Source: a virus. From it: a stretch of DNA of 35,407 bases. This document shows, piece after piece, positions 6,017 through 25,400 of the stretch (position 1 is its first letter; each line of letters opens with the position of its first letter). The stretch spans positions 1-35,407 of IMG/VR virus record IMGVR_UViG_3300023223_000931, one strand, 5' to 3'. The notes under the pieces were generated by a model. That model was not told where the DNA came from, did no database searches, and saw nothing but the letters and a program-made list of their open reading frames with translations. Position numbers and translations under genes: made by a program.

Positions 6017-6018
6017 CC

Positions 6019-6589: not shown

Positions 6590-7493
6590 CGAGGTAGTTG
6601 GTCATGACGCCATCAAGAAGTCCTTCCGACACTACATCGAAAAAGAATCGTTCAACTCCATCCTACTACACGGACCCCCTGGCACAGGAAAGACTGCACT
6701 CTTACTTGCTTTCCTTAGGGAGTTCTACGGAGATTCCTTCCGAGACAATGTCACCGAATACAATGCTTCCGATGACAGAGGAATCGACTTCATCCGAAAC
6801 ACCGTCAAGAAGTGGGCAAACATCTCACCCAAAGGTGGGTATTCGTATCGAACACTATACTTGGGAGAATGCGATGCGCTTACACCTGCGGCACAGGATG
6901 CTCTCAAACGCATTCTGGAGATCACTGCTTCCAATGTCCGTTTTGTTGCTGATTGTAATGACCTTTCTGCCCTGATCCCAGCGATTCGCTCACGCTTCGT
7001 GAGAATGTATGTAGGTCCACACGACGGAAATCAGATCGTAGAGCATCTAGGTTTCATCGCTGATGAGGAAGATCTCAACTTCGGTAATGTGACACTTGGA
7101 ACCATCGCTGAATATGCAACTTCCCTTCGTGACGCTATCCAAACCCTAGAATCGCTACCGCCGGGTGCTGATGATTTCCACCTCGCTGAGATCGACCCTC
7201 ACCCTACACCTCAATCCGTGGTAAAACTAATTCGCTCTAATTTTGAGCAATCATGGAATGACCGTGAGCGTGTGCTCCAAGAATGTCTGAAGGAATCTGG
7301 TAACCGAGCACACGAAGTGCTTGAGATGATCTACGAGATGTTCTCAAAGAAGGATCACGCTAAGAAGGGTGAGATCCTCTACACCATAGGTGAGTGGCAC
7401 TATAAGATGGAGCGTGGTGGAAACCCGATCATTGGGCTGCGTTGTTGTCTCGATGTGATCAAGGAGATTGTGAAAGGAAATGGGAATAAGTAG
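6549..7493 (+). CDS. rfcS: Replication factor C small subunit (clamp-loader ATPase)
   Basis: The 314-residue protein matches archaeal RfcS from its first residues (LPLVEKYRPKSIDEVVG). Walker A GPPGTGKT is at 42-49, the NASDDRGID signature at 72-80, and RSRF at 147-150 corresponds to the SRC box with Phe for Cys. The Walker B position reads LYLGECDAL, where family members usually have LDEAD, so the first Asp is Gly. Clamp loaders open PCNA rings and place them on primed DNA. ATG 6549 is preferred to GTG 6525 because the conserved N-terminus begins there and GGGAGA precedes it. It presumably pairs with the large-subunit-like protein encoded at 12602. Confidence 0.9.
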   Translation: MLPLVEKYRPKSIDEVVGHDAIKKSFRHYIEKESFNSILLHGPPGTGKTALLLAFLREFYGDSFRDNVTEYNASDDRGIDFIRNTVKKWANISPKGGYSYRTLYLGECDALTPAAQDALKRILEITASNVRFVADCNDLSALIPAIRSRFVRMYVGPHDGNQIVEHLGFIADEEDLNFGNVTLGTIAEYATSLRDAIQTLESLPPGADDFHLAEIDPHPTPQSVVKLIRSNFEQSWNDRERVLQECLKESGNRAHEVLEMIYEMFSKKDHAKKGEILYTIGEWHYKMERGGNPIIGLRCCLDVIKEIVKGNGNK

Positions 7494-7647
7494 AAAATCT
7501 GGCGGCTTCCATAAGCGCAAGTGTGAGTGTGGCTTCACATTCCATATTGGTAATCATTCCAAAGACCCGCCAACCAAGTGTGGGCGTTGCGAGCCTCGTG
7601 ATGGACAGGTAAGTTGGACTCTATCGGAGGGACCTCAAAATGGGTAA
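7480..7647 (+). CDS. Zinc-ribbon microprotein
   Basis: The 55-residue frame starts at ATG 7480 inside the RfcS C-terminus, just after AAGGAG. It has a basic N-terminus, then CECGFTFH and, 17 residues after the first Cys pair, CGRC. It ends at TAA 7645-7647, overlapping the next gene by eight bases. The ribbon spacing is typical; the function is unknown. Confidence 0.6.
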   Translation: MGISRKSGGFHKRKCECGFTFHIGNHSKDPPTKCGRCEPRDGQVSWTLSEGPQNG

Positions 7648-7894
7648 ATCATATGGACTAAGGAAGGGTGGTAACATCTACAACCGCATCGTAGAATTGC
7701 TCGCCGACACTGAGATGACCAGTCAGCAGATTGCCACCGCACTCAAGCCTGACTACAAATTCATCCCAACCAACGCTGTGTTGGGTCAACATCTGAGACA
7801 ATGGGGTATTCCTTGTCGAATCGAAACACGCTACGGTGAGAATGTGATCATCAAACCTCGACCGATAAAAATATGGGGGCCGTGGCCAAGATGA
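7640..7894 (+). CDS. Winged-helix-like DNA-binding protein
   Basis: The 84-residue basic protein contains IYNRIVELLADTEMTSQQIA, then NAVLGQHLRQWGI as likely recognition helix, and a beta wing (RIETRYGENVIIK). The layout matches the proteins encoded at 2283 and 2531, although identity appears low. A GGAGG sequence precedes the ATG. It may be a transcriptional regulator or a replication accessory factor. Confidence 0.6.
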   Translation: MGKSYGLRKGGNIYNRIVELLADTEMTSQQIATALKPDYKFIPTNAVLGQHLRQWGIPCRIETRYGENVIIKPRPIKIWGPWPR

Positions 7895-8031
7895 ATGACG
7901 ATCAAATCTTAGCCTCGTTCCGTCAGAAGCACCGCCCACATGGTCTAGTTGTATCCCTTGGATTGGATACAGCCTATCAGATCAATGAAGTATGGTGCTG
8001 TGATGGTTGCGGACAGAGGTTGTATCTATGA
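7891..8031 (+). CDS. Small protein with C-terminal CCxxC
   Basis: ATG at 7891 forms an ATGA overlap with the winged-helix gene. The 46-residue product ends in EVWCCDGCGQRLYL, one zinc knuckle, with several His residues near the middle that could complete a site. No family is recognised. Confidence 0.55.
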   Translation: MNDDQILASFRQKHRPHGLVVSLGLDTAYQINEVWCCDGCGQRLYL

Positions 8032-8117
8032 GACGGTGTCGCACTTGTGACGGTTCTGTCTATAGTTTCGACTGCCTCTGTGGACATTGTGAGTCATGCC
8101 ATTATGATATAAAGTAA
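8028..8117 (+). CDS. 29-residue Cys-rich microprotein
   Basis: ATG at 8028 overlaps the preceding TGA (ATGA). The product has CRTC near the N-terminus and a second cluster CLCGHCESC, seven Cys in 29 residues, enough for one or two zinc sites. It ends 13 bases before the MazG-like gene. Length alone makes the call uncertain; the junction and Cys pattern support it. Confidence 0.5.
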   Translation: MRRCRTCDGSVYSFDCLCGHCESCHYDIK

Positions 8118-8130
8118 AGGAGAAATAAAT

Positions 8131-8502
8131 ATGGGATATGACCTAAGTGGCGGAAGCCAAAACTATTGTGCAGCATTACACTTGTACTCGGCAGAAAAAC
8201 AAATTCTAGCCAACTCGAAAGCACATGGATTCAACCATGATAATCCAGCAGAAAAGATTGCACTGATGCACTCAGAATTATCTGAGGCATTAGAAGCGAT
8301 TCGCAAAACCAAAGGGAAGATGAGTGAAGGACCGAAATCAGATAAGATTCCTGCCTTCACTAACCTAGAAGAGGAAATGGCTGATGTCATCATACGCATT
8401 CTCGACTTCACTGCATTTCATTCCCTCGACATCGAAGGAGCGATCATAGCGAAGATGAAGTTCAACAGTAGCCGGCCTGTAAAACATGGAAAGGAATTCT
8501 AG
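8131..8502 (+). CDS. MazG-like nucleoside triphosphate pyrophosphohydrolase
   Basis: The 123-residue protein is a single all-alpha MazG-like domain. The metal-binding motif pairs are ALMHSELSEALEAIR and EEEMADVIIRILDF, corresponding to the ExxE and ExxD motifs. Enzymes of this family hydrolyse NTPs or dNTPs to monophosphate plus pyrophosphate, often to clear abnormal nucleotides or shift the pool during viral infection. The start has a strong AAAGGAG ribosome site eight bases upstream. It is immediately followed by a nucleoside deoxyribosyltransferase-like gene, forming a nucleotide-pool pair. Confidence 0.85.
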   Translation: MGYDLSGGSQNYCAALHLYSAEKQILANSKAHGFNHDNPAEKIALMHSELSEALEAIRKTKGKMSEGPKSDKIPAFTNLEEEMADVIIRILDFTAFHSLDIEGAIIAKMKFNSSRPVKHGKEF

Positions 8503-8862
8503 ATGAAAGTCTATGTAGCAGGTTCCTCGAAATCAATTTTAGGTCCTACTATTTGGATGGGACATCTAAGAAAAGCTGGTCACGAGATTACTTTTGATTG
8601 GACTACTGATGTGATAGCAGATAAGAAAGATGCAGAATGCGCAGTGAATGATGTCAATGGTGTCCTTACTGCCGATGCTATCATCATGGTACTAGATGGT
8701 GTTCATACTCAACGAGGAACATATGTAGAAATGGGTATTGCTCTGGGTGCGGGAAAGCCTGTCTATCTCTACGAAGATAAGGCACACTCTGATTCAGTCT
8801 TCATGTTCCACCCACTTGTTCAGATCATTACTAGTGTTGAAGATCTGTTGGAGAAGATATGA
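8503..8862 (+). CDS. Nucleoside 2-deoxyribosyltransferase-like protein
   Basis: The 119-residue protein begins with VYVAGSSKS, has ADAIIMVLDGVHTQRG in the middle, then GTYVEMGIALGAGKPVYLY. This is the NDT/RCL fold pattern, with the Glu of YVEMG as the likely nucleophile. Relatives exchange bases on deoxynucleosides or cleave deoxynucleoside 5'-monophosphates; I cannot tell which reaction applies here. The gene abuts the MazG-like gene with no gap, suggesting they act together on dNTP precursors or noncanonical nucleotides. Confidence 0.8.
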   Translation: MKVYVAGSSKSILGPTIWMGHLRKAGHEITFDWTTDVIADKKDAECAVNDVNGVLTADAIIMVLDGVHTQRGTYVEMGIALGAGKPVYLYEDKAHSDSVFMFHPLVQIITSVEDLLEKI

Positions 8863-8978
8863 TGGGTGAATGGGGTAAAACCTGTCCTCACTGCGGTAAG
8901 CGACACTACCACAAGAAGGTGTGGTTCATCAACTCAGACTGGCGAAGTCGCTGCGAAGGTGGGAGGATGTTGCTATGA
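8859..8978 (+). CDS. Zinc-finger microprotein
   Basis: Two adjacent ATGs at 8859 and 8862 overlap the preceding stop. The product is 39 residues (38 from the second ATG) with CPHCGKRHYH and a single Cys about 20 residues later. His residues after CxxC could complete a zinc site. It ends in an ATGA overlap with the membrane-anchor gene. Confidence 0.5.
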   Translation: MMGEWGKTCPHCGKRHYHKKVWFINSDWRSRCEGGRMLL

Positions 8979-9154
8979 TCATCGAAACCGTCCTCGTTCT
9001 GACCACGCTTTACATCATCTGGTATCATCGTGGAAGATTCCAACGGAAGGTCAACTACTATCACGATCTTGCATCTGCCGGTCTAGTTGGCATGGATGAT
9101 GTCAATTGGATGCGTGATCTACTTGGTCTCGCACCTGGATGGATGGTAAAATGA
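8975..9154 (+). CDS. Small single-pass membrane protein
   Basis: ATG at 8975 overlaps the preceding stop; an in-frame start at 8921 lies within the previous gene. The first 17 residues (MIIETVLVLTTLYIIWY) form a likely transmembrane helix, followed by basic HRGRFQRK, so the C-terminus is probably cytoplasmic. It is the only clearly membrane-bound product in the replication half of the window. Function unknown. Confidence 0.6.
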   Translation: MIIETVLVLTTLYIIWYHRGRFQRKVNYYHDLASAGLVGMDDVNWMRDLLGLAPGWMVK

Positions 9155-9240
9155 CCTACCCCTACCACTGTTGTATACACTGCCAGATGGGGTGCGTAGG
9201 GAAGCATCTGATTCGGTGTAAATTGGAGTGCCATGTGTGA
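9151..9240 (+). CDS. 29-residue Cys/His-rich microprotein
   Basis: ATGA overlap at 9151-9154. The product has CCIHC followed by CVGKH and two further Cys near the C-terminus (RCKLEC), enough ligands for a zinc site. It overlaps the next microprotein frame by eight bases. Confidence 0.5.
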   Translation: MTYPYHCCIHCQMGCVGKHLIRCKLECHV

Positions 9241-9316
9241 AGAAAAGAAGTGTCCAAGATGCGGATTCACTCGTCAGTGTTTCGAATGTAAAGTGTTCGA
9301 TCAGATCAAACTCTAA
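9233..9316 (+). CDS. 27-residue zinc-knuckle microprotein
   Basis: ATG at 9233, ending at TAA 9314-9316 whose last A is the first base of the polymerase ATG. The product has CPRC and CFEC nine residues apart, a compact four-Cys site. The exact TAATG coupling to the polymerase gene supports translation. Confidence 0.5.
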   Translation: MCEEKKCPRCGFTRQCFECKVFDQIKL

Positions 9317-11631
9317 TGCTAACCACCCCGCTCAGTGTCAAGTCAGTCTCAGAAGAAGACGGTGAGTATCTCGATCTGTGGCAGGACGGAAAGAAGATCC
9401 GTGTTCCTGCTCCGTTTCGACCCTATGTGATCTCCAAAGTGCAGATGCAGTTCGATGGAGATGTGCACGAGGAGCAGATCGTAGCGAAACCGTTGGATAC
9501 GCTCGAACCTGAACCCTACTTCAAGTATTCCTTCCCCACCGTCCAGGGTATCCGTGACTTCAACTCATTACTGAAGCGGGACTTCCCTCAGGATGAGCGT
9601 GATACAGTATTCGAGAATCACTGCCCGTTCATCGAGCGTGTCGCCGTGGACCAACCCAACTTCTTTACTCAGTGGCCTGATCTGATAAGTCACTGGCTCA
9701 CATTTGATATCGAAACGCTCTCCAAAAATGGGCGTTACTTCGATGACATCATCGCAATCTCCGTCAACAACGGAGACGAAACCCAATGTTTCACAGGAAA
9801 AGAACATGACATACTACTCGAATTCATCCAATATTTTACCGACGAAGACCCCGATGTCGTCATCACTTACAACGGCAAGCAGTTCGATCTCCCTCGAATC
9901 CTCGACCGCTGTCGACATTACAACATTCCTACTGAATGGCTTGGTCGAGACGGTGAGGAGACATGGCAAGATAGCGATACTGGACGCGTACATCGAATTG
10001 AAGGACGACTTAATTACGATGTATGGGAATCTGTTGATGGGGACCAATCACTATTTGGTCTTAAGAATAAGCGTCTTAAAACCGTCGCTCCGCACTTCGG
10101 AATACCGGCAATTGAAGAGGAGACATTCAACACGATTGAACTCCTCGACGATATTGAGAGACTCATTCGTTATTGCAACTCTGATGTGGACGCTACGAAG
10201 GCACTTGCCGATGGATATCTTAACAAGGACATCGCCATCTCTAACCTCCTCAAGTTCCCTATTGACGAGATTGTCAACCCTCGGGGAGCCAAGCATGGTA
10301 AGAAAGGGGATAGGATGGGAAGAGCTCGGTCTGGAATGGCTACGCTCATTGGTCGACTTATCACGCAACGAGGAATGGTCCGAGGCGGCTTTGTTGAAGC
10401 AGGCCCTAACTATGTTCGTTACCCACACATCTACCGTAGAGAGTCACGGAATTTTCAGGGTGCCATCGTGGATATATGGCAAACCGGACTTTTCGACGAT
10501 GTCCTTCATGTAGATTTCAGCGGGATGTACCCGTCAATCCAGATGAGTGTCAATATCAGCCCTGAGACAGTGAAGTTGATTGACATCGAGCCTTATGATG
10601 AAGAGGCTGAATTTTATCGTGGAGATGGTATCTTCTGCATCGTGGATAAGAACCTCGAAGGCAACGCCATCATCCATGTAGATCAATCCTTCGTGGGTGG
10701 CATCCCCAGGGATCTCGCTGACATGAAAGTGGAACGAGGGAAGAACAAGGAGTGGAAGAAGGAATCTAAAACAGAGGACCAACGACTACGATTTCACTCC
10801 GTCCAGTTGGGGATCAAGATCCTGATGAACTCAGTGGGGTTTGGTGTCAACGCTCCATCTGTGGTCCGCTACGGTTCCACTCCAGTTGCGATGCTCATTA
10901 CTGGGATCGCACGCTATATGCTCAACTTCGCTATTAAATTCATTGAAGTACAGGGCTTCGCTCCAATTGAATGTGATACAGATGGTATCTATATTGAATG
11001 GGACCCCTACTTTGACCGTAATCTTTTCCTCAAAAATCTCAATGATGCCATCACAGAAGAAGTCTCGAAGTGGGGCTCCAACCCAGTGATGGAGATGGAA
11101 GCAGATCTTTACAAAGCGGGCTACTGGCACAAAGCGAAGAACTATGTGCTGCTCGATGACAAAGGAGATCTCAAGATCACAGGTGGTGCGTTCAAAGGAA
11201 GTAAGTCACCCAAGATGATGGACGACATTAGAAATGAACTCGCTTGGTTCAGATTGAAAGGGTGTTCAGATGAGGAGATCACACCCATCGTCAAAGGAAT
11301 GATGAAGATCGCTAACTATGGGATGAAGGAAATGACGATGGGCGTCACCAATAGTAGGGCTGCAGATGACTACGAAACGGAAACGATGGGTAAGAAACTC
11401 GCAAAGATGGCTGAGAAGGAACTGGGCATACTTCCTTCTGCTCACACACGCTACGAATATGTCTACACCAAGAGTGGTTACGGGTTATCTCTGACTACAG
11501 ATCGAAGTCAACTTGATTACAAACGCTATCGAGGGATGGTCTCTACTATGTGTGAGAATCTGGGATGGGGTCACATCTCAAAGCGTTACATTGCAAGGCC
11601 GGGTTTCGTTGGAATCAGGGGGAGGAGATGA
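9316..11631 (+). CDS. polB: Family B DNA polymerase with 3'-5' exonuclease
   Basis: This 771-residue protein is the probable replicative polymerase. Proofreading motifs are intact: Exo I TFDIET with D131 and E133, Exo II ITYNGKQFD ending at D191, and Exo III YCNSD with Y286 and D290. Polymerase motifs are DFSGMYPSI (motif A, D400), KILMNSVGFG (motif B, 501-510) and CDTDG (motif C, D554 and D556). DTDG replaces the more common DTDS, as in several archaeal and viral enzymes. The length is typical of archaeal PolB and there is no terminal-protein-priming insertion that I can recognise, so priming is probably by the AEP at 2880. The gene is coupled to its neighbours by TAATG and ATGA. Confidence 0.95.
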   Translation: MLTTPLSVKSVSEEDGEYLDLWQDGKKIRVPAPFRPYVISKVQMQFDGDVHEEQIVAKPLDTLEPEPYFKYSFPTVQGIRDFNSLLKRDFPQDERDTVFENHCPFIERVAVDQPNFFTQWPDLISHWLTFDIETLSKNGRYFDDIIAISVNNGDETQCFTGKEHDILLEFIQYFTDEDPDVVITYNGKQFDLPRILDRCRHYNIPTEWLGRDGEETWQDSDTGRVHRIEGRLNYDVWESVDGDQSLFGLKNKRLKTVAPHFGIPAIEEETFNTIELLDDIERLIRYCNSDVDATKALADGYLNKDIAISNLLKFPIDEIVNPRGAKHGKKGDRMGRARSGMATLIGRLITQRGMVRGGFVEAGPNYVRYPHIYRRESRNFQGAIVDIWQTGLFDDVLHVDFSGMYPSIQMSVNISPETVKLIDIEPYDEEAEFYRGDGIFCIVDKNLEGNAIIHVDQSFVGGIPRDLADMKVERGKNKEWKKESKTEDQRLRFHSVQLGIKILMNSVGFGVNAPSVVRYGSTPVAMLITGIARYMLNFAIKFIEVQGFAPIECDTDGIYIEWDPYFDRNLFLKNLNDAITEEVSKWGSNPVMEMEADLYKAGYWHKAKNYVLLDDKGDLKITGGAFKGSKSPKMMDDIRNELAWFRLKGCSDEEITPIVKGMMKIANYGMKEMTMGVTNSRAADDYETETMGKKLAKMAEKELGILPSAHTRYEYVYTKSGYGLSLTTDRSQLDYKRYRGMVSTMCENLGWGHISKRYIARPGFVGIRGRR

Positions 11632-12167
11632 CTGACATCGACACAACCACATGGAGATGTGGTGGTCCACCTGCTACAGGTCAGCGTCAGAGATACCCTG
11701 GAAGATTTCTTCACAACTTCAAGAAGACCTACCCAGTAGAAGGGAAGAACATCCTTCACATGTTCTCAGGAACTATGGATTGGGGAGATACGACTGACAT
11801 CAGATCTGAAACTGGAGCGAAGATCGTGGCACCCTACAACGATCTCCCTATCGAGGACAACACTTACGATATGGTATTGGCGGATCCACCATACAACAAA
11901 GGGTTCAGTAATCACTGGACCACCCACAAAAACGATCTACCCAAACCGAAACACATCCTGATGGAAGCATCCCGAGTTGTAAACCCAGGTGGAATCATTG
12001 CCATCCTTCACATCATAATCATCCCTGCATACAAGGTAGCGAATGTGGATCGGATCGCACTTCATCCCGTTCTCACTGGACCCAACAATGCTATTCGAGT
12101 CCTGAATGTGTTCAGGAAGAAGGGTGGAGAAGTACGAAAGAAAGTGGGGGTGAGAGGACGCAGGTAG
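11628..12167 (+). CDS. DNA methyltransferase-like protein (DPPY motif)
   Basis: The 179-residue protein starts at ATG 11628, overlapping the polymerase stop (ATGA). The core shows HMFSGTMDWGD (likely SAM-binding region), then DMVLADPPYN, the DPPY catalytic motif of adenine-N6 or cytosine-N4 methyltransferases, and ASRVVNPGGIIAILH, a typical strand-helix of the fold. It is short and has no obvious target-recognition domain. No restriction enzyme lies beside it, so it is an orphan enzyme that could mark viral DNA against host defence. An RNA or protein substrate is possible. Confidence 0.75.
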   Translation: MTDIDTTTWRCGGPPATGQRQRYPGRFLHNFKKTYPVEGKNILHMFSGTMDWGDTTDIRSETGAKIVAPYNDLPIEDNTYDMVLADPPYNKGFSNHWTTHKNDLPKPKHILMEASRVVNPGGIIAILHIIIIPAYKVANVDRIALHPVLTGPNNAIRVLNVFRKKGGEVRKKVGVRGRR

Positions 12168-12223
12168 ATTCACGCAAAGTAGAATTCGAATTCGGCACAT
12201 GGCTTGATGAAACAGATCATAGT

Positions 12224-12478
12224 GTGATGACATTTCAAGTTACAAACATCGTTCCTCCTTATGACGGAGATCCTCTATTCCAAGGAACATTCCGTTGGAA
12301 AGGAGTATGGGAAGGAAGAATCTACTTTCAAGAGGAAGAAGAGTTTTGGGGATCTGATCTTAAAGAGATGACAGATCTCTATGAGAATCATATCGTTCCT
12401 TACTGCAAAGAACAAATCAAATCACACGCTGACCCTCAATTCTTACAGGGCATGAACGAGGACAAAGGACATGTCTGA
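12224..12478 (+). CDS. Hypothetical acidic protein, start uncertain
   Basis: A protein of 83-84 residues read from GTG 12224 or ATG 12227. It begins TFQVTNIVPPYDGD and includes an acidic EEEEF run. I recognise no family. No good ribosome site precedes either codon. The same frame stays open upstream through about 12170 with protein-like sequence (VEFEFGTWLDET) but no ATG, GTG or TTG, so the true start may be non-standard or lost. The end overlaps the next microprotein. Confidence 0.55.
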   Translation: MMTFQVTNIVPPYDGDPLFQGTFRWKGVWEGRIYFQEEEEFWGSDLKEMTDLYENHIVPYCKEQIKSHADPQFLQGMNEDKGHV

Positions 12479-12608
12479 TTACACTACAGCCCAAGAACTG
12501 CGAGACTGTGATGGTTGTGTGTTCATGGGTCACTTCGCTGGCGTCCATAGGATAACACCTATTTATGGTCGCTGCAAACTACACATGGGATTGATGATCC
12601 GATGGTAG
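12471..12608 (+). CDS. Cys/His-rich microprotein
   Basis: The frame runs from ATG 12471 to TAG 12606-12608, overlapping neighbours on both sides. The 45 residues have CDGC, then a His-containing stretch, then CKLH near the C-terminus, plausible ligands for one zinc. It directly precedes the large clamp-loader gene. Confidence 0.5.
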   Translation: MSDYTTAQELRDCDGCVFMGHFAGVHRITPIYGRCKLHMGLMIRW

Positions 12609-13408
12609 ATCTCATCGGACTCTCTGACCAGCGTGAGTCTCTCTCAGCCTACTTCAGTGGCAACATACCGGCTCAGGCTGCGTTGCTCTCCGGCCCGCTC
12701 GGCACAGGGAAATCGTCGCTGACCGAGGAACTCGCTGCAGAGTGGGGACTCACGATCTATCACCCCACCGAACCTAAAAGCGTGCGAGGAAAGCGGTCTA
12801 AACAGGCGAAACCGACGCATCTACGCAAGTCAATCCGAGGTGGTCAGCGTCTCCTCGTGGCTGAGGATCCGAGCGTGAGTTTCATTCGAAACCTTCTAAA
12901 ACAGCCAGAGTTAGTAGTGATAATTGTAACTGAAGCATGGAGGATTCCTCGTGATATTAGAAACAGATGCCACCAAGTCGTCTTCAAAAGACCCAAACGA
13001 CTTCACTATAGATCATATCTCGGAGATCGACATGATGTTTCCGATGATGTGCTTTCTCAATTCCAAAATTGGAGAGATCTACGAAACTGGATGGAAGGTG
13101 GAGATCCAACAGGGTCTGTTATTCTATCTGAATTCGAACAAGCAACTAAGATTTTTGCAAGTGAACACAGATCGAATCAATCACAAATACAGTCAACCTC
13201 GATCTCAACTGAGTCTCTCCTCCACTACTACATTCTATCAGAAGGAGACAGAGTGGTGGTGGAACGAGTGAACATGCTCCTCTCATGGGGTGAGTTCGGC
13301 AAGCGAGTCGCTCGTGATCTGCTCATGCTCCAGCACATCAAGGTGAAGTTTCCCTACGGTAAGAAGGGTGAGAAGAAGCAAGCGGTGAAGTTCCTGGGGT
13401 TCGTATGA
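12602..13408 (+). CDS. Replication factor C large subunit-like ATPase
   Basis: The 268-residue protein has Walker A GPLGTGKS at 31-38 and a likely Walker B region LLVAEDP near 84-90. It continues with VVIIVTEAWRIPRDIRNRC, matching the sensor 1/SRC region of clamp loaders. It lacks the SRC arginine in exact form but has RNRC. This layout fits a reduced archaeal RFC large subunit, much shorter than cellular RfcL (over 400 residues), with a basic C-terminal tail. It would form the viral clamp loader with the small subunit encoded at 6549. Base composition in the central third is more AT-rich than at the ends. Confidence 0.75.
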   Translation: MVDLIGLSDQRESLSAYFSGNIPAQAALLSGPLGTGKSSLTEELAAEWGLTIYHPTEPKSVRGKRSKQAKPTHLRKSIRGGQRLLVAEDPSVSFIRNLLKQPELVVIIVTEAWRIPRDIRNRCHQVVFKRPKRLHYRSYLGDRHDVSDDVLSQFQNWRDLRNWMEGGDPTGSVILSEFEQATKIFASEHRSNQSQIQSTSISTESLLHYYILSEGDRVVVERVNMLLSWGEFGKRVARDLLMLQHIKVKFPYGKKGEKKQAVKFLGFV

Positions 13409-13494
13409 AACTTCACTGGGCCGTAGAACACTGGCGTCTACGAACTTGGGATTCACTATCTTACTACCAATGGTTAGGTGAGTTGATCGAATGA
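13405..13494 (+). CDS. 29-residue Trp-rich microprotein
   Basis: ATG at 13405 overlaps the clamp-loader stop and the TGA at 13492-13494 overlaps the next ATG. The product has four Trp and no Cys, unlike the other microproteins here. It is kept because ATGA couplings at both ends leave no other explanation for the spacing. Confidence in translation is limited. Confidence 0.4.
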   Translation: MKLHWAVEHWRLRTWDSLSYYQWLGELIE

Positions 13495-13700
13495 AGTGGA
13501 CTGAACCTGACAAGGAAGTACTATTAGAATTGCTAGATCGAGCACTTACCATCTTCGATGAGTTCGAAGATAGGTATCGCTACCAGACTGAGGAGTGCGT
13601 TTACTGTAAAAAGATCAACCACACTATGAGCGATTGTAGAATGACAGATCTCAACACAGACATCGACATTGAACTGGACAAGTATAGGACTTCAATATGA
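13491..13700 (+). CDS. Small acidic protein with zinc-knuckle-like motif
   Basis: A 69-residue product with an acidic helical N-terminus (EVLLELLDRALTIFDEFEDR), then CVYCKKINHTMSDC. The C-x2-C-x5-H-x4-C spacing resembles a retroviral-type zinc knuckle, which in other proteins binds single-stranded nucleic acid. The likeness may be coincidental. Confidence 0.55.
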   Translation: MKWTEPDKEVLLELLDRALTIFDEFEDRYRYQTEECVYCKKINHTMSDCRMTDLNTDIDIELDKYRTSI

Positions 13701-13909
13701 CACCAATGAATAGACTGTGCTGCATTGCTCAGACGATGAAAGTTACTGGGGATGACGATGTGATGATCTGTTCAGGTTGTCATACTGAATATAAACGGGC
13801 TCCATATGTGATGGGTGCCCCTGAAGCATGGATCGTAACGAAGGAAGGAGATGGGACACAACCTGTAGATACATATGCGAGGAAATACAACGATGATTCA
13901 CTGTTCTAA
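13697..13909 (+). CDS. Zinc-ribbon protein
   Basis: ATGA overlap at 13697-13700. The 70-residue product has LCCIAQ near the N-terminus and CSGCHTEY about 17 residues later, a probable zinc ribbon. The C-terminal half is beta-rich and acidic at its end. The gene overlaps the last gene of the operon. Confidence 0.6.
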   Translation: MTPMNRLCCIAQTMKVTGDDDVMICSGCHTEYKRAPYVMGAPEAWIVTKEGDGTQPVDTYARKYNDDSLF

Positions 13910-14030
13910 TCATGACTGTGAAAAGGAACTCTTCCGCTGGTTCATCACGATTATAGATAGAACACCAAAGATAGACAGAGTCTACGACTACTGCTCAAAA
14001 GCCTGCGCTTCTGAGTATTTTAGTAACTAG
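13893..14030 (+). CDS. Zinc-finger microprotein, last gene of the + operon
   Basis: The frame runs from ATG 13893 to TAG 14028-14030. Its 45 residues have HCSNHDC at the N-terminus and YCSKAC at the C-terminus, with a hydrophobic RWFITII stretch between, like the small treble-clef fingers seen in archaeal viruses. Its stop shares CTAG with the stop of the first gene on the opposite strand. Confidence 0.6.
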   Translation: MIHCSNHDCEKELFRWFITIIDRTPKIDRVYDYCSKACASEYFSN

Positions 14031-14503
14031 ACACCAGCCAACCTAGTTGCTCCACCCCACAACAGTTGTCCCATAGAAGGATGTTGAGGTGGGTAGCCAG
14101 GCTGACCCGTCTGATATGGGTTGTGGTTGTAACCCCACTGATTGTTCTGATACGAGGTCACTCCATAGTGAGATCCATAAGCGGTCTGATCTGCACTCAC
14201 TGAAGCATAGCCAGACTGGACCAGTAGGTTATGGTTCGCCTCGTGGTGACGCTCGATCTCAGCACTGAGTGTATCGAAACGACTACGCATCCCATTCAGT
14301 TTGTTCACGATATTTGTGACCTGATTCGGATCGTTTCCACTTCCCTGCGTCATGAATATCATGTAGTCCAGTACACCATCCTCGATGTAGACCTTCAGCA
14401 TAGCGTGCTCAATCTCCATCGCCTGTGTATCGATCAAGTCAACGAGGATTTCCTCGACGGTGCGCTGTGGTTCTAGGTGACTCCATTGATCTCCATATGT
14501 CAT
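14027..14503 (-). CDS. Hypothetical protein with Tyr/Asn/Pro-rich tail
   Basis: The 158-residue protein is last in the late operon. Residues 1-95 are helical and acidic, with coiled-coil character around NKLNGMRSRFDTLSAEIERH. From about residue 96 the sequence is low-complexity, rich in Tyr, Gln, Asn, Gly and Pro (YNHNPYQTGQPGYPPQHP), likely disordered. It may recruit or cluster partners such as the proline-rich membrane protein encoded at 16914. No family is recognised. Confidence 0.7.
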   Translation of the reverse strand: MTYGDQWSHLEPQRTVEEILVDLIDTQAMEIEHAMLKVYIEDGVLDYMIFMTQGSGNDPNQVTNIVNKLNGMRSRFDTLSAEIERHHEANHNLLVQSGYASVSADQTAYGSHYGVTSYQNNQWGYNHNPYQTGQPGYPPQHPSMGQLLWGGATRLAGV

Positions 14504-15270
14504 TATAGTAGCCTCTGCAGTTGGTTGATGTTATCGTAATTACCTCGGATCACGGCTTTAACAATATCCTTATCAGTCAGATCCTTGGGACTTCCCTTCT
14601 GTAAGATGCGGTAGGTAAAGCCACGCCCTACAGTTCTGTTGTCAGTGAAAGTCTGAAACAATTGATAGAGAACGAAATGTCGAATGATGGGAAGTGGCTT
14701 TCGATTCGGGTTCACTTCAATATGATTGTCCCACACAGCATCCTTCACCTGCTGCCACATCTTGAAACGGTGCGTGTTCCAATCACATTTGTGGCACAGA
14801 CCAGCCTTCGACTGCTGCTTCGGCTTCTCGTTCAACTTCTTTACTTTCACATCAGCGTGCTTGAGATTGGTATCTCCACATAAATGGCACACTCCGGCGG
14901 CAGTAAACTCATGTTGCGCAAAGAAAAAGGAAAGTGCGAAGATTAGCAGGATCACACCGAGGCTCATTCTGACTGCACTACCAGCAGCGGTGCCTCCAGC
15001 GATGAATAATAAACAGCCTATAATAACCAGAATAGTTACCCACGGCAGATGAATACTCCACTTCTTCGAGATTCCAACCTTGCGCACATACCATGGTGGT
15101 TCAACTGGACCCTGCGCTAGGCACCAATTCGTCATGGCTACAAGTTCGCCATACTTCATGTTGTCCGCAGCTTTACAGACAGCAGGGAGACTACTCAGAT
15201 TCCCAAGTTCGTCGTTGGACTGCTCGTAGACCTCAATCACCTTGGTTCGAATCGTACTGGGTTGGTTCAA
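14503..15270 (-). CDS. Two-helix membrane protein with zinc ribbon
   Basis: The 255-residue protein has an N-terminal soluble segment, transmembrane helices at about 74-93 and 100-118, and then a four-Cys zinc ribbon (CHLC at 128-131 and CHKC at 159-162). A basic C-terminal domain of about 90 residues follows. The start is TTG at 15270, coupled to the GTPase stop (TTGA), with no ATG available in frame nearby. It resembles no family I know. Coupling to the GTPase gene suggests the two work together at the membrane. Confidence 0.72.
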   Translation of the reverse strand: MNQPSTIRTKVIEVYEQSNDELGNLSSLPAVCKAADNMKYGELVAMTNWCLAQGPVEPPWYVRKVGISKKWSIHLPWVTILVIIGCLLFIAGGTAAGSAVRMSLGVILLIFALSFFFAQHEFTAAGVCHLCGDTNLKHADVKVKKLNEKPKQQSKAGLCHKCDWNTHRFKMWQQVKDAVWDNHIEVNPNRKPLPIIRHFVLYQLFQTFTDNRTVGRGFTYRILQKGSPKDLTDKDIVKAVIRGNYDNINQLQRLL

Positions 15271-16040
15271 AGGACATGCCTCCCTACATTCTCAATATAA
15301 TCTTTCAGCGGCAACTTGTCTCGACTATCGAGATTGTTCGCTGGGTAGTAGTACGACTTCTCAACTGAAGCCGCAATGAATTGGACGGTGTATTCATTCT
15401 TGATCATGTTCATCGGTGACTTCTCAAAATCCTTCATGTAATAGTCGATTACCTTCTGTGACATCTGTCCTCTCTTCTCCCTACCGAGATGCTCCCAACT
15501 GTCGATCTTGTTCAGAATGATCGTGATCATCTTCACTGACTTCGATGGACGCAGATACTTCTTGATCCAACCATGACCAGGTAGCCAGTACACGATTGGA
15601 ATTGCCGCTTGCGTGGAATGACGATAACTCGTCGATGCTAAGTGCTTTGAGAGTCGATCCAGTTCCACCCAATTGTACTTCTCCTCCCATGTATCTGTTG
15701 CTAATAGTAATCCAATCCATTTTGGCTTCAACTCGTCAACTTGATCGGGAACCATCGAGGCATCGTGCGGATAGTCAATTCCTTTCCACCAGGGATCTTT
15801 GACCCTAGGGATATCCAACTTGAGTCGAGTTCGATATCTGACTCCTCGCTGTGTAGTTGGTATGCGAGTTTGATACACGGGTGTGATTCCATTCTCGAAA
15901 GAGAGATGCATCGTGGACTTCCCGGTATCTTGCATCCCAACGATGGCAAACGGAAGAGTCTTTCGAGGTGCAAGTTTGTAAGCGATGATGGAGCCAACGG
16001 AAACACCACCGTAGATTCCTGCTGTAACTGGATCTGGCAT
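15267..16040 (-). CDS. Small GTPase-like P-loop protein
   Basis: The 257-residue protein has the order of motifs of Ras-superfamily-type G domains: G1 GMQDTGKS at 35-42, a possible G2 Thr in PTTQRG at 61-66, a degenerate G3 in LDIPRVKDP (D76, lacking the usual Gly), G4 NKID at 177-180 and a G5-like AAS at 223-225. Residues 6-22 are weakly hydrophobic and could anchor it in the membrane, as in the signal-recognition-particle receptor beta subunit. GAGG precedes the ATG. GTP binding is likely from NKID; hydrolysis is less sure because of the altered G3. The gene is flanked by membrane-protein genes, so a membrane-linked switch is inferred. Confidence 0.75.
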   Translation of the reverse strand: MPDPVTAGIYGGVSVGSIIAYKLAPRKTLPFAIVGMQDTGKSTMHLSFENGITPVYQTRIPTTQRGVRYRTRLKLDIPRVKDPWWKGIDYPHDASMVPDQVDELKPKWIGLLLATDTWEEKYNWVELDRLSKHLASTSYRHSTQAAIPIVYWLPGHGWIKKYLRPSKSVKMITIILNKIDSWEHLGREKRGQMSQKVIDYYMKDFEKSPMNMIKNEYTVQFIAASVEKSYYYPANNLDSRDKLPLKDYIENVGRHVL

Positions 16041-16043
16041 TGG

Positions 16044-16301
16044 TTACCTCTCATAGGTCACATCCTGACGACTGATGTTCACTCTGGCCCACGCTACGAG
16101 GACGAGAACGAGCAGAAAGAATAACCCACATGCGCTCGTCTCGATCTTGGTGCGTAGCGTCCACGAAGCCACCCAAGGAAACAGATATGAGTTCAGATTC
16201 ACAGCGTCAGCCACTATGCCGTAAATTACAGCAAAGATGATTGTGATAGCAAATGTAGCACCCTGCTTGATGAGGACTTTGGTCTGGGCCGGGATCATCA
16301 T
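16044..16301 (-). CDS. Small two-helix membrane protein
   Basis: The 85-residue protein has hydrophobic segments at about 15-33 and 55-72, with a short loop between and a charged C-terminus. The size and topology would suit a holin-like protein, but many small membrane proteins look like this. Its start overlaps the end of the zinc-ribbon gene upstream. Confidence 0.65.
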   Translation of the reverse strand: MMIPAQTKVLIKQGATFAITIIFAVIYGIVADAVNLNSYLFPWVASWTLRTKIETSACGLFFLLVLVLVAWARVNISRQDVTYER

Positions 16302-16501
16302 TTAAGATTCGCCCTGCGCTGTCGCTTATTCCAACAGGGTTTGCAGAGAATAACTCTAGAATGAATACCCAGTGGATCGGTTCGTTTTGCGCCCTTTCGT
16401 TCGCACAATTGGCATCTCACAACACCATATTTGGCAATAGAATATTCTCGATAATTCTCTAGAGCTTGATAGTGCTCGTAATCTTCATAAATCTGCATCA
16501 T
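16298..16501 (-). CDS. Small zinc-ribbon protein
   Basis: The ATG at 16501 is chosen for its ATGA overlap with the preceding stop; an in-frame start at 16531 would add ten residues. The 67-residue product has an acidic, Tyr-rich N-terminal helix, then CQLC and CKPC 21 residues apart, a pattern also seen in HNH-adjacent zinc fingers of phages, ending in a basic RQRRANLK tail. No catalytic HNH residues are evident. Confidence 0.62.
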   Translation of the reverse strand: MMQIYEDYEHYQALENYREYSIAKYGVVRCQLCERKGAKRTDPLGIHSRVILCKPCWNKRQRRANLK

Positions 16502-16914
16502 CCTAACATCCTCCAATATAGAAACTCCCATACCACCCCAATGAATAACGCTCGTCCAGTCGCATTTGCTACGGCTACGGCTATGTCAAGGAAGATGATG
16601 ATCGTAGCGGCTCCTCCACCATACCCGATCAGGAGCATAAGGAAACACAGGCCTACCAACCCCTTCGTGGTGAACTGGTGCTTGCGCACATTGGCGTAGT
16701 TTCCCTGCACCCCTGGCATCCACTGAGCGTCCTGCTGGACAGAATACGGCGGATATGCGGCCTGCTGGAGCACGGGAGGGAGTGGAGGCTGCTGCGGTGG
16801 AGGTTGACCCATTGGAGGCCCTGGAGCCATGCCAAGAGGCGGCTGCTGACCGTATACACCCATGGGTGGTTGACCCTGTAACATAGGCGGTAGAGGTGGA
16901 CCTCCGTTCGTCAC
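16498..16914 (-). CDS. Proline-rich membrane protein
   Basis: The 138-residue protein has an N-terminal region (1-70) dominated by Pro, Gln, Gly and Met (for example MGQPPPQQPPLPP), followed by a basic KH segment and a hydrophobic C-terminal half (about 85-135) with two or three membrane helices. Pro-rich arms of this kind usually bind partner domains or extend through a cell surface layer. No family can be named. It overlaps neighbours on both sides. Confidence 0.68.
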   Translation of the reverse strand: MTNGGPPLPPMLQGQPPMGVYGQQPPLGMAPGPPMGQPPPQQPPLPPVLQQAAYPPYSVQQDAQWMPGVQGNYANVRKHQFTTKGLVGLCFLMLLIGYGGGAATIIIFLDIAVAVANATGRALFIGVVWEFLYWRMLG

Positions 16915-17483
16915 AGCTTACGCTCCTTGTTCAGCTTCCGCTTCTCCACGAACGGCATCGCTGAGGTAGTAACCTGCACGGCTACATCTGCACTCTTCTT
17001 TACAATCTTCCCAGGTACACCAAGTCCCTTCTTCAGGAAACCCTTCTTCTCAGGATACGCTTCGTGCTTATGCAACTCCATCGAGCGCATCTGCTGATTG
17101 TACATCGTGCGGACCGGTCCCTTGAAAGCAGAATCGATATGGTTGTGGAAGATGTCGAGCACCTGCTCTAGAATCTGAGATTCCTGTCCGTCAGTATATC
17201 CCATCTTCTTGATGTAGGCCTTCATCTCCTCTACAGCGAGTAGCACCTCGAAAGCAACATACTCTCCAAAGGACTTACCCATCTTGACAATATCCTGCGC
17301 TATCGTATCAAAATGACCAGCGAATTGAGAATTTCCCTTCTCACCCTTACGCTGTTTTATCAACTCACGAATCGAACTGTCGTTGTGAATCTTTTCCTTC
17401 TGCGTTTCGCGTCTGCGGTTCACCATTGACGGTGACTTCTCACCATCGGCGTCATCCTCGATGATTGTATCTTCTTCACTCAT
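16911..17483 (-). CDS. Hypothetical charged helical protein
   Basis: The 190-residue protein starts eight bases inside the MscS-like gene. The N-terminus is acidic, then strongly basic (MVNRRRETQKEKI), followed by a long helical middle (EYVAFEVLLAVEEMKAYIKK) and a Lys-rich C-terminus (KKGFLKKGLG, EKRKLNKERKL). It has no membrane segment. It may be a cytoplasmic partner of the channel. No family is recognised. Confidence 0.68.
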   Translation of the reverse strand: MSEEDTIIEDDADGEKSPSMVNRRRETQKEKIHNDSSIRELIKQRKGEKGNSQFAGHFDTIAQDIVKMGKSFGEYVAFEVLLAVEEMKAYIKKMGYTDGQESQILEQVLDIFHNHIDSAFKGPVRTMYNQQMRSMELHKHEAYPEKKGFLKKGLGVPGKIVKKSADVAVQVTTSAMPFVEKRKLNKERKL

Positions 17484-18345
17484 GTGTTTTCACCGTCTTC
17501 ATTATTTCGTTGAGTCCAATTGCATGACGCAGAGCGCGCCCTGCTGAATAGTTGATTACAGGCACCCTGATGGTAGCCGTACCGTTGACATCGAATACTG
17601 CTGTAGGTTTGACCAGCGTTTGCCAGTTCTCCTCATTAGCGTTGGGGAACAAGATAGCCACATCGCTAATACTAGGCTTGGCAATATAGGCTTTCAGATG
17701 AGGATTACTGGAAATTGTGATTGGAATATTATTCACGCCCACTTTATCCTCAGATGAAATCTTGAATTCCTCATAATGAAAGGGAGAACGATCTAGATTT
17801 TCAATGATATATTCCATCAGTAATTTATTGGGTACGATGTATTGTGTACCAGTTGGACTCATAACAGTAGTAGAATAGATAGCTACTTCCCTTACCCACC
17901 CTTCATAGTGGACACCCTTCTCATAATGAGGATGATAACAACGAATGAAGTCACCCTTTCCAAAGGCCCCAGTAAGTAGGATCTCCATCCCTGAAAGAAT
18001 GTGATTGATGATTTGTGTTCCTGCAAATATCCCTACTATTCCAATGAATCCACCACCTATAGCCCAACCTCGTCTAGATTCCTGAGTATCTAACCAACCT
18101 AGAAGATTGACAGAGATGAAAATGATCGGTAACCATGCTGCCCACCCAAGTAGTTTAGTTACAAGGTCAGACCATAGATCAGCAACTTCAGGATGATCCT
18201 GATTACGACTATACATCTTATTGATAATCTTCTTGACCAGTAACCTGAATTTGAATGGTCTCCATAGAACCCACCATAGAGGTGGAATTACCAAAGCCCC
18301 GATAATAGACCACACATCACATGGAATAGCAAAGAGGCAACTCAT
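17476..18345 (-). CDS. MscS-family mechanosensitive channel
   Basis: At 289 residues it is almost the length of E. coli MscS (286). Transmembrane helices are at about 11-29 and 66-85. TM3 at 94-125 is Gly/Ala-rich (GGGFIGIVGIFAGTQIINHILSG), as in the pore helix of the family. It is followed by FGKGDFI at 128-134, EGWVREVAIYSTTVMSPTG at 148-166 and the conserved VPN at 171-173, which is the family's beta domain. The C-terminal part fits the cytoplasmic vestibule. Such channels open under membrane tension and let solutes out. Finding one in a virus late operon is unusual. Role in egress, osmotic control or entry is inference. Confidence 0.87.
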   Translation of the reverse strand: MSCLFAIPCDVWSIIGALVIPPLWWVLWRPFKFRLLVKKIINKMYSRNQDHPEVADLWSDLVTKLLGWAAWLPIIFISVNLLGWLDTQESRRGWAIGGGFIGIVGIFAGTQIINHILSGMEILLTGAFGKGDFIRCYHPHYEKGVHYEGWVREVAIYSTTVMSPTGTQYIVPNKLLMEYIIENLDRSPFHYEEFKISSEDKVGVNNIPITISSNPHLKAYIAKPSISDVAILFPNANEENWQTLVKPTAVFDVNGTATIRVPVINYSAGRALRHAIGLNEIMKTVKTHE

Positions 18346-18836
18346 TTCTTAGGGACCTTAGTAGCGGGGGTGTCATTCCATGTGCCTACCATACCAATGC
18401 TACGCATCACATCATGAACATCATCTTTGATGATGCTATTAGCCTGTGATTTCATCGTACTCAGTTTACCTTTAGTGTAAGTCCATAATCGTTGTTCCCG
18501 AGATGGGAATGCACGATATATTAGAACAGTAAGAAATCCAAGGGAACCAAGACCAACTAATACAGCTCCAAAGAAGAACCCAGGATAGTCGATCATAACA
18601 TTCCTGATCTCAGGTGCATATACCATGAGAAGCATGAACAGATAGACAACTACACCCATAACTGCAATCGCATACCACAAGTTAACTTCATCTACAAACA
18701 TCTCCCCCTTGTGACGAATCTTATCTGCCGTTCGTTCCTGTTCGGTAAAATGAAATTCATCACGACGCTTAGGAAGTAATCTCTTCTGTGTCTTTTCTTG
18801 AGTAGCCCCAGGAAAGGGCATTTCAGTTTGTTCCAT
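18342..18836 (-). CDS. Two-helix membrane protein
   Basis: The 164-residue protein has a charged N-terminal cytoplasmic region of about 50 residues, membrane helices at about 51-73 and 84-109, and a C-terminal region of about 55 residues with helical character. Its stop overlaps the start of the MscS-like gene, so it may be a channel partner or auxiliary subunit. No family is recognised. Confidence 0.68.
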   Translation of the reverse strand: MEQTEMPFPGATQEKTQKRLLPKRRDEFHFTEQERTADKIRHKGEMFVDEVNLWYAIAVMGVVVYLFMLLMVYAPEIRNVMIDYPGFFFGAVLVGLGSLGFLTVLIYRAFPSREQRLWTYTKGKLSTMKSQANSIIKDDVHDVMRSIGMVGTWNDTPATKVPKK

Positions 18837-19153
18837 TAATGGGCTCCAGGGAGATCTCGTGGGTCGATGATTCGAATGCCTGAGTTAGCGAGTGGGACAA
18901 GGTCGCTCAATTCGTAGAGATCGTATGCAGTATAGACAGTGTTCGGCTTTAATGAAGTAAGGACTAATCTTCCATCCTCATCAGTAACACCCGCCTTCCA
19001 ATCTCGATAGTAAATCTTACTCTCTTGATAGGGCTGATGACTGTCGAGCATGTTGTCCACGAATTCCTTTCGCTTCTCACGCTCGGTCAACTCCTCCTCT
19101 TCCTTTTCAGCCCGGGTTTTGCGACCCACGATTAGGGTGAGGAATCTTTGCAA
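18836..19153 (-). CDS. Hypothetical charged protein, TTG start
   Basis: The 105-residue product opens with QRFLTLIVGRKTRAEKEEEE and a highly charged helix, followed by a beta-rich C-terminus. The start is TTG 19153: the frame is closed by TAA just upstream and AAAGG lies seven bases before it. An ATG at 19157 is in another frame that ends after 16 codons. It is the first gene after the gap that separates the tail genes from the membrane cluster. Confidence 0.6.
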   Translation of the reverse strand: MQRFLTLIVGRKTRAEKEEEELTEREKRKEFVDNMLDSHQPYQESKIYYRDWKAGVTDEDGRLVLTSLKPNTVYTAYDLYELSDLVPLANSGIRIIDPRDLPGAH

Positions 19154-19203
19154 ACATTAACCTTTCTACGGTTAAAACGGTTAAAGTAAAAGTTTTGCAA
19201 AAA
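19154..19203 (-). promoter_or_regulatory. Intergenic repeat region, candidate promoter or terminator
   Basis: This 50-base gap is the longest on the - strand. It holds a perfect tandem repeat ACGGTTAAA at 19168-19176 and 19177-19185 (given on the + strand), and is bracketed by two copies of the palindrome TTTGCAAA at 19147-19154 and 19194-19201. On the - strand it opens with a T-run just after the hub stop codon. This fits a transcription boundary between tail and membrane genes, with a repeat-bound regulator possible. No clear archaeal TATA box is visible. Confidence 0.35.
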
Positions 19204-22468: not shown

Positions 22469-25400
22469 TTATCTCCACTCCTTCAGCCTCACTGCAAATT
22501 GTACTATATTCATTCCTTCACTGACTTCACCAGGAATGAGATCTATGATTCTACACTTGTGAATGTAACCACGAGGGAATACAACTTCGAGCGTCTGCTC
22601 ATCGTTCATAGCCTGATTGAGGAACCCATAGAGACAGTTGTCTCTCGTCGCAAACTCCAATGTCGTTTCCTTATCAGTAAAACCCTGTATGATGTTACGA
22701 TGGGACGCTCGTCCCTGAACTGCGTGCGATATCAAATGAGGTATGTGTATAGGCTCGAACGCATCAAGAAGGAACTCTTGTGTCTGATCAATCTCATAGA
22801 CTTCTCCACCTCCAGGGTTTCCAATCTTACGGAATCTCGTATTGAGATTCACAAAGAAGCAAGATAGAATCTCCATCGGTGGATCCTGTGTTGAAGTCTC
22901 AGTCTTGATAGTCCAGAAAGTGGTCACTGCATCAGGAACAAATCTAGTTCCCGTTGCTACCAACTTCCCGCTAGTTTGAATTACGATATCTTTGTCTATC
23001 TCTAATTCGTTGCATTCAACCGTGATCAGACCTGTAATGATTTCATCGAAATCAATATCTCCAATCCAAGTTACATTACTCTCAGTCTCAGCACCACCAG
23101 TGTTGAAGAAAGCAGCAGTACGAACAGCGTTCACCGTGCCATCCTTGTAATCATAAGTTCCACCCGCAACCACTGTAAGAGTGATACTAGCACCGAGAGT
23201 TAGATTCACATCACGAAGGAAAAAGCCATGATGTTTGACGATGAGATTATCCAGATCCTGATTCGCCGCATCGCTATAAATTGCCATCTTTCCTTTAGTG
23301 TAAGTGGTGTCGACTGCAGAAAAGTTACTTGCTGAAGTGACCCAATCTGCCGCTAGAACAGTTGCTCCATTCAATGAAACTGCAAATACACCTGCGGTAG
23401 CAACACCACTGATATCTTCATTCCATCTAACACGGAAGTCAATTACAGATCCTGTGATCGTGCCGATTGAAGTACCACCATCAAAATTCGTAGCAGTATC
23501 AATTGTGGTATCAACACCTGCAACTCTCTTCACGACTCGAAGCGTATCAGTTCCTACAGTGTCTATAAAAACCTTGTAATAATTTAGGTTATCCTGCCAA
23601 CCAAAGATGAAGCCCAACTCATTAGTAATGGGATCTAACTCTGCTTCAGCATCAACACGATTGTAATCTGAATCACCGAATACTAGTTGACCTGAAGCAG
23701 TGCGCAGTTGATTAGTAGCATAAGTGAAACCTCCAGGCCAAGAATAATTGTTGATGAGATCTTCATTAAAGACAAGTGCGCCACTAGAATCAGTTTCACG
23801 CACTTCAATATCAAAGAAAGTAGATGCGAGCACGGTAGTAGCAACAGTGAATCGAATGAAGACGGTGCCTGGATTACCACTCCCTGAAAATGTTCCCTCG
23901 AAATCACTACCCGTTTGAACGAACGCAGAAAGACCTGCTCCCGTGCTAGTGGATTGATCCACTTCGAATCCATCTACTGCAACACCAGCAGGCGTCGTTG
24001 TTCCAATCGTTCCTTTGAACCGAACATAATAATCCGTACCAGCAACAGTAGGAATGAAGATCGACAACATCGTTGGTGTACCACTTACCGCCTCAAATTG
24101 ATTGGCACCATTGATATCCCAAGAAGCGGCAGTTATACTCCAATCAAAAGTATCCTCATTGACCACACTCTGATAGGCTGAATTAATCGTTTGATTGCTG
24201 AGGATGATTACTTCCTTTGTATTGGTGCGATTATGTTGCCAAGAGATGAGTGTAGAGCCTACTGCAATAGTAACATCACTCGAATCAAACATACAACTTA
24301 CAAGTTCTACATCTGAAGTAGTATCAACTTCAATAGCATTCCCACCAGTAAACGCACAATTGGTAACATTATTTAGAGCGTCACTTGCGAAGCGTCCTCC
24401 TCGGACTGAACCATCAAACACACAGCTTCGTATTTTTCCAGTGAAGGTATTCGTATCAATTAAGAGTCCTGTTGATCCGCCACTAACACCAATTCTCTCG
24501 AAGGAAATATTATCACTAGTAGTACTCAGAACCCGAATACCCAGAGGTGCCCCTGTAATTGATCCATCAGAAAAGGTGATTGTCGAGTTTCCGGAATTGT
24601 GTTGAATACCTGTCTGTGCAGGAGTGAGAATTGAGAAATTAGAAACTGTGCCATCTGTTGCTCCGTCAATATAAATCGAGGCTACGAAAGTTCCACTATT
24701 ATATCCAAGCGTGTCAAGTTCAACAAAGGATAGATTCGCTGTACCACCACTCAAACGAATATTTCCGTTATTACCACCGCCTCCAACTTGCTGATTCTGA
24801 ACCTTCAACAATCGAGTTGTGTTACCAGTAAGTGTAAGTGATCCACCTGCAATAAGATTAAGTTGCTCATCATCATCAATCTCCAACTCGAAGGTTGCGG
24901 AAGTCCCCGGTGCGCAAGTAAATGATCCACCTGATGTAATAACAGTCGTATCAAGCAGTTCGATATTGAAAGTGAGAGCATTAGCTGGATTGAAGGTGAA
25001 ATCGCCACCACAAACAAAGATTCCAAAAGTATGATTAGTAACTGTGGTGGTCGAATCGATGATCACATCTGCCGTCGAATCAAAAGTTGTGGTCGTGCCA
25101 ACTTCTGCCACCCAACTAAGAGGGAAGAAAGCGGTATCCACCGTGAAACTACAGTCATTCCCCCCTGCTCCATCATCTTCGAACAATCGGATTTCATACC
25201 CATTCGGTGTGGAGTCCTGTAAGTCTGTGGTAGTATCGAGTAGCCCCCATAGGAGAAGAACCAGTGCGGATCCGCCGCTCACATTCCCCCATACAGCAAG
25301 ACCGGCAGTAGCATTACTGATGCTTACAGTTCCATTAGTAAGAGTGCAATCATTAATCTGAACTTTAATCGGTTGGCTTACAACTAAATCTTGAGATGCA

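Follow-up and report, generated by a model that had tools for sequence, protein, structure and literature searches.

What role a membrane-rich run of ten genes might play directly behind the tail genes of an archaeal virus, and why a mechanosensitive channel should be encoded among them, is the question raised by the region 14027-19153 of IMG/VR record IMGVR_UViG_3300023223_000931. The entire record (35,407 bp, classed as linear) was analyzed and is referred to here as the window. Ten minus-strand open reading frames (ORFs), designated A to J in order of transcription, fill this region, which is bordered by the last tail gene on one side and by convergent plus-strand genes on the other (Table 1). 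As judged from profile matches and alignments, gene C encodes a divergent new member of the known MscS family in an unusual place, and the special trait of the cluster is its membrane content, not its close packing. The cluster may be an envelope-modifying cassette that acts late in the infection cycle of an archaeal siphovirus, most likely for egress, a reading to which we give a probability of just under 0.4; egress is thus the leading guess for its function and not a result.

The assignment of C is based on a match to the MscS beta-domain profile in Pfam (PF00924, MS_channel_2nd) with E=1.5e-10 and 41.5 bits against a cut-off of 20.2 (44.4 bits in a second run). Matches to solved MscS-like channel structures were weak, with a best E value of 0.0004. 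The best matches were from Thermoplasmatota (6e-9; 390 genomes), Thermoproteota (6e-8) and Halobacteriota (5e-6), the phylum names being derived from the named loci used as centres of the genome sets. C could be aligned with Thermoplasmatota MscS over the transmembrane (TM) helices TM1-TM3, the beta-domain and the alpha/beta domain with about 25% identity. Hydropathy peaks were present at positions 2, 61 and 95, and the segment GGGFIGIVGIFAGTQ aligns with the Gly/Ala-rich pore-lining TM3 of the homologues. A single-sequence AlphaFold2 model of low confidence (predicted local distance difference test score, pLDDT, of 44) contained helices at 9-47, 52-84 and 88-128; a fold search with this model was dropped as the model was too poor. 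Compared with cellular MscS proteins (PF00924, including those of rhodopsin-bearing Thermoplasmatota), C thus shows the beta-domain, the three N-terminal helices and the alpha/beta domain, but it is very divergent, virus-borne and, in the alignment, ends about 22 residues before its cellular homologues, so that the final C-terminal beta-barrel strand, which closes the cytoplasmic cage, is missing. Since Escherichia coli MscS without the barrel strand still opens (PMC4440785), the missing strand is no bar to membership in the family. In the part of this source that cites Schumann 2004, the E. coli MscS delta266-286 variant is described as inactivating after opening, not being activatable again and giving partial protection only (PMC4440785). 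On these grounds C is considered a bona fide, although divergent, MscS family protein with predicted channel activity.

The origin of C within the family was less clear-cut. In a phylogenetic tree C formed a branch of length 2.8 that joined other long branches, and its placement is not given by the tree. C begins with MSCLFAIP, and an N-terminal MSCLxx[LI]P is common to one group of Thermoplasmatota MscS proteins, although it lies outside the matched region; grouping of C with this MSCL-type clade was neither supported nor rejected (approximately unbiased test, p=0.09), and profile scores for C favoured the more diverse groups. A start of the form M-x(1,2)-CL was present in 22 of the 30 best Thermoplasmatota matches fetched, usually with a Pro four residues on, and rhodopsins were encoded in six of the ten best-matching Thermoplasmatota genomes tested. 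The rhodopsins suggest that the class concerned is marine Poseidoniia, and the N-terminal motif of C, the sole basis for a host assignment, is a hint that the host belongs there.

Virus-borne mechanosensitive channels are known from giant viruses of algae and protists and from marine phages (PMC6163359, PMC13288924). The present case resembles these in that a virus codes for an MscS- or MscL-like protein, and differs in that the virus is a tailed virus of archaea and the channel gene is embedded in a cluster of membrane-protein genes behind the tail genes. No earlier report of an MscS or other mechanosensitive channel in an archaeal virus was found in the literature searched, as judged by title and abstract.

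Table 1. Positions in the window and main features of the cluster genes and of the gap preceding them.
Feature	Coordinates	Strand	Description
Gap	19154..19203	(-)	Between last tail gene and A; 50 nt, largest among late genes
A	18836..19153	(-)	105 aa, soluble, charged; TTG start behind AGAAAGG; first gene behind the 50-nt gap
B	18342..18836	(-)	164 aa; two TM helices (~56-74, ~88-106), charged ends on both sides
C	17476..18345	(-)	289 aa, MscS-type channel; three predicted membrane helices, beta-domain, alpha/beta domain
D	16911..17483	(-)	190 aa, highly charged, probably helical, cytosolic
E	16498..16914	(-)	138 aa; Pro/Gln-rich N-terminal half, then 1-2 TM helices; GTG start behind AAGGAG
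F	16298..16501	(-)	67 aa, zinc-ribbon-like, CxxC...CxxC
G	16044..16301	(-)	85 aa; two TM helices; resembles holins only by size and topology
H	15267..16040	(-)	257 aa, P-loop protein; G1 GMQDTGKST, G4 NKID
I	14503..15270	(-)	255 aa; two TM helices (73-91, 99-117), two CxxC pairs, soluble C-terminal part; TTG start behind GGGAGG
J	14027..14503	(-)	158 aa; N-terminal half helical, tail disordered and rich in Gln/Tyr/Pro/Gly; last gene

A sequence-only reading of the window, made before this analysis, had described ten genes in a row at the distal end of the late operon of a tailed archaeal virus, all coupled by overlapping stops and starts. The row of ten and its position directly behind the last tail gene were borne out, with the annotated frame scoring best of the six frames for nine of the ten ORFs, the exception being F, when codon use was scored against a training set of twelve confident genes. 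Shine-Dalgarno-like sequences were present upstream of A, E, H, I and the corrected start of F (see below). The coupling was found at eight of the nine internal junctions, which overlap by 1-8 nt, while G and H are separated by a 3-nt gap. Such overlaps occur genome-wide, including among the tail genes and the plus-strand genes, and therefore do not single out the cluster as a unit. What does set it apart is that a TM segment, called by a simple hydropathy threshold, was predicted in five of its ten genes versus three of 44 elsewhere (Fisher p=0.0034), a value that is descriptive because the cluster had been picked in the sequence-only reading partly for its membrane proteins, and that depends on the threshold and on our choice of ORFs outside the cluster. 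The gap upstream of A contains a perfect inverted repeat, TTAACC-N7-GGTTAA (19157-19175), a possible operator or archaeal promoter element; with up to two mismatches allowed, this pattern was not rarer than chance in the window.

The protein types listed in that reading were largely recovered, namely the MscS-type channel, three two-helix membrane proteins (B, G and I), a proline-rich membrane protein with a hydrophobic C-terminal half (E), a charged helical protein (D) and a protein with a low-complexity C-terminal tail (J), whose gene shares 4 nt with the convergent plus-strand gene. A search of each protein for its family gave an answer for C, and the nine other proteins showed no significant match in Pfam or PHROGs and no credible one in PADLOC; a weak match of D to ZorA (E=0.0026), at the level of coiled coils, was discarded. 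The zinc-ribbon protein F has the expected CxxC pairs, as does I, but its start was moved from 16531 to what is probably the correct ATGATG at 16501, which is preceded by GGAGG and forms an ATGA overlap with the stop of E, giving 67 aa instead of 77; the in-frame codon score of F was weak. For the protein described as GTPase-like, H, the G1 (GxxxxGK[ST]) and G4 (NKxD) motifs of TRAFAC-type GTPases are present, but a G3 DxxG was not found (the nearest candidate being DIPR), no GTPase profile, HMM or PDB entry was matched in the libraries searched, and a single-sequence structure model (pLDDT 32.5) was too poor for a fold search. G is within the range of holins, as a small protein with one to four TM helices, and shares their two-helix topology; in contrast to the holins of tailed phages, it matched no described holin family in Pfam or PHROGs and has no endolysin partner among the proteins scanned.

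If the cluster serves egress, its genes would be transcribed late, together with the tail genes, and the small two-helix proteins (G, B and perhaps E and I) would build up in the cell membrane, which they would breach or remodel as infection ends. No endolysin would be required in an archaeal host that has no peptidoglycan. The shortened MscS protein C might open under the resulting tension or dissipate ion gradients, and may fire once without recovery, like E. coli MscS lacking residues 266-286, with the P-loop protein H and the zinc-ribbon proteins F and I as possible cytosolic timing or assembly partners. That these parts form a new egress system, in which several two-helix proteins, a one-shot MscS without barrel strand and a P-loop switch open the membrane without a wall-degrading enzyme, is a more specific proposal and a rather improbable one.

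Several observations are consistent with a role in egress. The cluster lies distally in the operon of virion genes, is co-oriented behind the tail genes, is enriched in membrane-protein genes and includes the MscS family gene C, and no endolysin-type domain was found among the virus proteins scanned, in agreement with the sequence-only reading. Holin-only egress has been proposed for archaea without pseudomurein (review, PMC4456609). In the haloarchaeal siphovirus HFTV1, the one archaeal siphovirus encountered for which a lysis transcript has been proposed, this transcript is gp33-gp34 (PMC12542753), and gp33 resembles G and B in architecture, being a small membrane protein with two helices and a charged tail. 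However, the two systems share no sequence similarity, comprise two genes versus ten, and differ in that the HFTV1 pair includes no channel or P-loop protein and lies ahead of the tail-tube gene.

Other findings weigh against egress. None of the cluster proteins showed a sequence relationship to a known lysis protein in Pfam, PHROGs or the comparison with HFTV1. The argument that the slot behind the tail genes is a lysis slot was taken from bacterial phages and is weak, since the proposed lysis genes of HFTV1 (16702-17176) sit between the tail-completion and tail-tube genes, so that a rule of lysis genes following the tail is not established for archaeal viruses. The expectation of a conserved system recurring in related genomes was not supported either, the set being seen in no second genome among those searched, including HCTV-1 and the nearest PolB relative, and nothing thus shows that the cluster evolves as a unit. 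Capsid and terminase genes are absent from the 35-kb record, so further late genes may be missing, and the capsid-side genes could hold the real lysis genes. Finally, the normal task of MscS is to protect against osmotic lysis, not to bring it about.

This last point leads to the alternative that deserves most weight, though we consider it unlikely, in which an MscS gene of cellular origin supports osmotic or ion balance and delays bursting of the swelling cell, the small membrane proteins being helpers or unrelated. The established function of MscS is that of an emergency valve, C can be aligned over nearly its full length with Thermoplasmatota MscS and shares the N-terminal motif of one of its groups, and MscL genes in estuarine Caudoviricetes have been read as osmoregulatory (PMC13288924). 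However, C is without the strand whose loss leaves E. coli MscS with partial protection only (PMC4440785), and the four further TM proteins encoded beside C would be left unexplained.

It is also unlikely that the cluster is no functional unit at all but a variable accessory region of unrelated genes at the end of the operon, in which A, D and J may be minor virion or assembly proteins. The genome-wide occurrence of gene overlaps would fit such a region, as would the orphan status of most cluster proteins and the situation in HCTV-1, the nearest cultured relative by replication genes and among the isolates nearest by RFC, where no TM-rich run was found behind the tail genes; the enrichment in membrane-protein genes and the unbroken chain of close junctions, without opposite-strand genes, argue against it. 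Least probable is a role in superinfection exclusion or envelope remodelling, with the membrane proteins blocking the entry of competing viruses: small orphan membrane proteins, several of which are present here, are typical of superinfection-exclusion factors and no homology to lysis proteins would be required, but such factors are usually expressed early or from prophages, whereas the cluster genes sit behind the tail genes, and the defence-library match was limited to the weak, coiled-coil-level one of D.

The search for relatives covered phage, archaeal and metagenomic collections. For the cluster proteins other than C a concatenated query was used, from which the J tail and the Pro-rich segment of E had been removed. 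With this query, tblastn at E<=1 matched none of 50,697 phage records. Among 340 genomes of the rhodopsin-bearing archaeal class it yielded nothing credible; the single match obtained there (E=5.5e-4) falls in a reading frame interrupted by nine stop codons. Probing of IMG/VR was limited to short, exactly matching peptide patterns, and negatives from it are therefore weak. The choice of patterns was guided by alignments of the window protein with artificial substituted copies (for PolB, H and PolB motif C), which served as search aids and are not evidence of conservation. Nothing was found in IMG/VR with the patterns from the substituted alignments of PolB and H or in scans with C, the tape measure and PolB singly, and a pattern from the MscS alignment revealed no relative of C there. 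The motif C pattern led to one distant PolB relative, IMGVR_UViG_3300035179_000011 (53,323 bp), whose PolB is the nearest found (27% identity over 779 positions, E=5e-59); with the window it confidently shares PolB only, plus one weak match, and it showed no MscS domain and no cluster gene. The RFC pattern gave 80 loci, none with a cluster gene, the best lying in the record of an isolate that, besides RFC, encodes primase and PolB and shows a weak Cas4-like match. The set including C had no match in 50 IMG/VR records found via RFC or PolB, a comparison that, being without positive control, shows little. Thus no relatives were found for the cluster proteins apart from C, which does not establish that they are private to this virus.

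The identity of the virus as a tailed virus of archaea is well supported by its gene content, as the sequence-only reading had proposed. Plus-strand genes span 69-14030; those on the minus strand extend from 35384 down to 14027. The former comprise an archaeal-type replication set of PolB, an RFC small subunit (NF001679, E=4.8e-65), a Hef/Xpf-type nuclease (E=4.9e-23), a Cas4-like nuclease and a second RFC-like ATPase, together with a protein related to the Druskaviridae primase. The minus strand codes for siphovirus-type tail proteins, among them a tail tube, a tape measure and some very large ones, and for a neck protein, so that archaeal-type replication proteins and tailed-virus virion proteins, the combination expected of archaeal Caudoviricetes, occur in one record. 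Given its linear class, the record is probably a fragment of a larger genome. Protein similarity places the virus far from everything in the collections used. Its nearest isolates, going by RFC and primase, were haloarchaeal Druskaviridae, with which PolB, the RFC small subunit and the primase are common, but the replication proteins are only 22-34% identical (RFC small subunit 32-34%, primase about 22%) and matches to HCTV-1 were few, so that replication and virion proteins did not reveal a close relationship. Magrovirales, compared by description only, likewise have PolB, an RFC small subunit and a primase, and opposed directions of replication and virion genes (PMC12999244, PMC10768690); their definition includes a genome of 90-110 kb, and the present record is a 35-kb fragment.

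Some further features of the window were observed. In the RFC small subunit, 6525-7493 (+), LGECDA replaces the LDEADA of archaeal relatives, exchanging the first acidic residue of Walker B, and the second RFC-like AAA protein is encoded at 12602-13408. A NUMOD4/HNH homing-type endonuclease gene, 4146-4649 (+), is inserted among the replication genes, and a gene for a MazG-like protein, 8131-8862 (+), which was also matched in HCTV-1, is followed by one for a nucleoside 2-deoxyribosyltransferase, forming a small nucleotide-pool module. The 2016-aa tail protein encoded at 22469-28519 (-) is Thr/Ser-rich and repetitive, has no Pfam or PHROG match and is probably a tail fibre or adhesin. Antisense within its gene, at 26223-27599 (+), are two long ORFs (266 and 186 aa), and the GC skew is locally reversed there; the ORFs showed no Pfam match and are probably spurious. 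Rfam and tRNA scans of the window found nothing, and a scan for bacterial promoters and terminators gave signal at chance level.

A recognized lytic protein has been reported in only about 11% of 129 archaeal double-stranded DNA viruses (PMC12596118), and, as of 2015, none of the isolated archaeal viruses had an identified holin gene (PMC4456609). An archaeal tailed virus with an MscS-type gene extends the short list of viruses carrying such channels. As the exit of tailed archaeal viruses from their cells is almost unknown, the ten-gene set, with its channel and candidate membrane-breaching proteins, offers a concrete target for testing.

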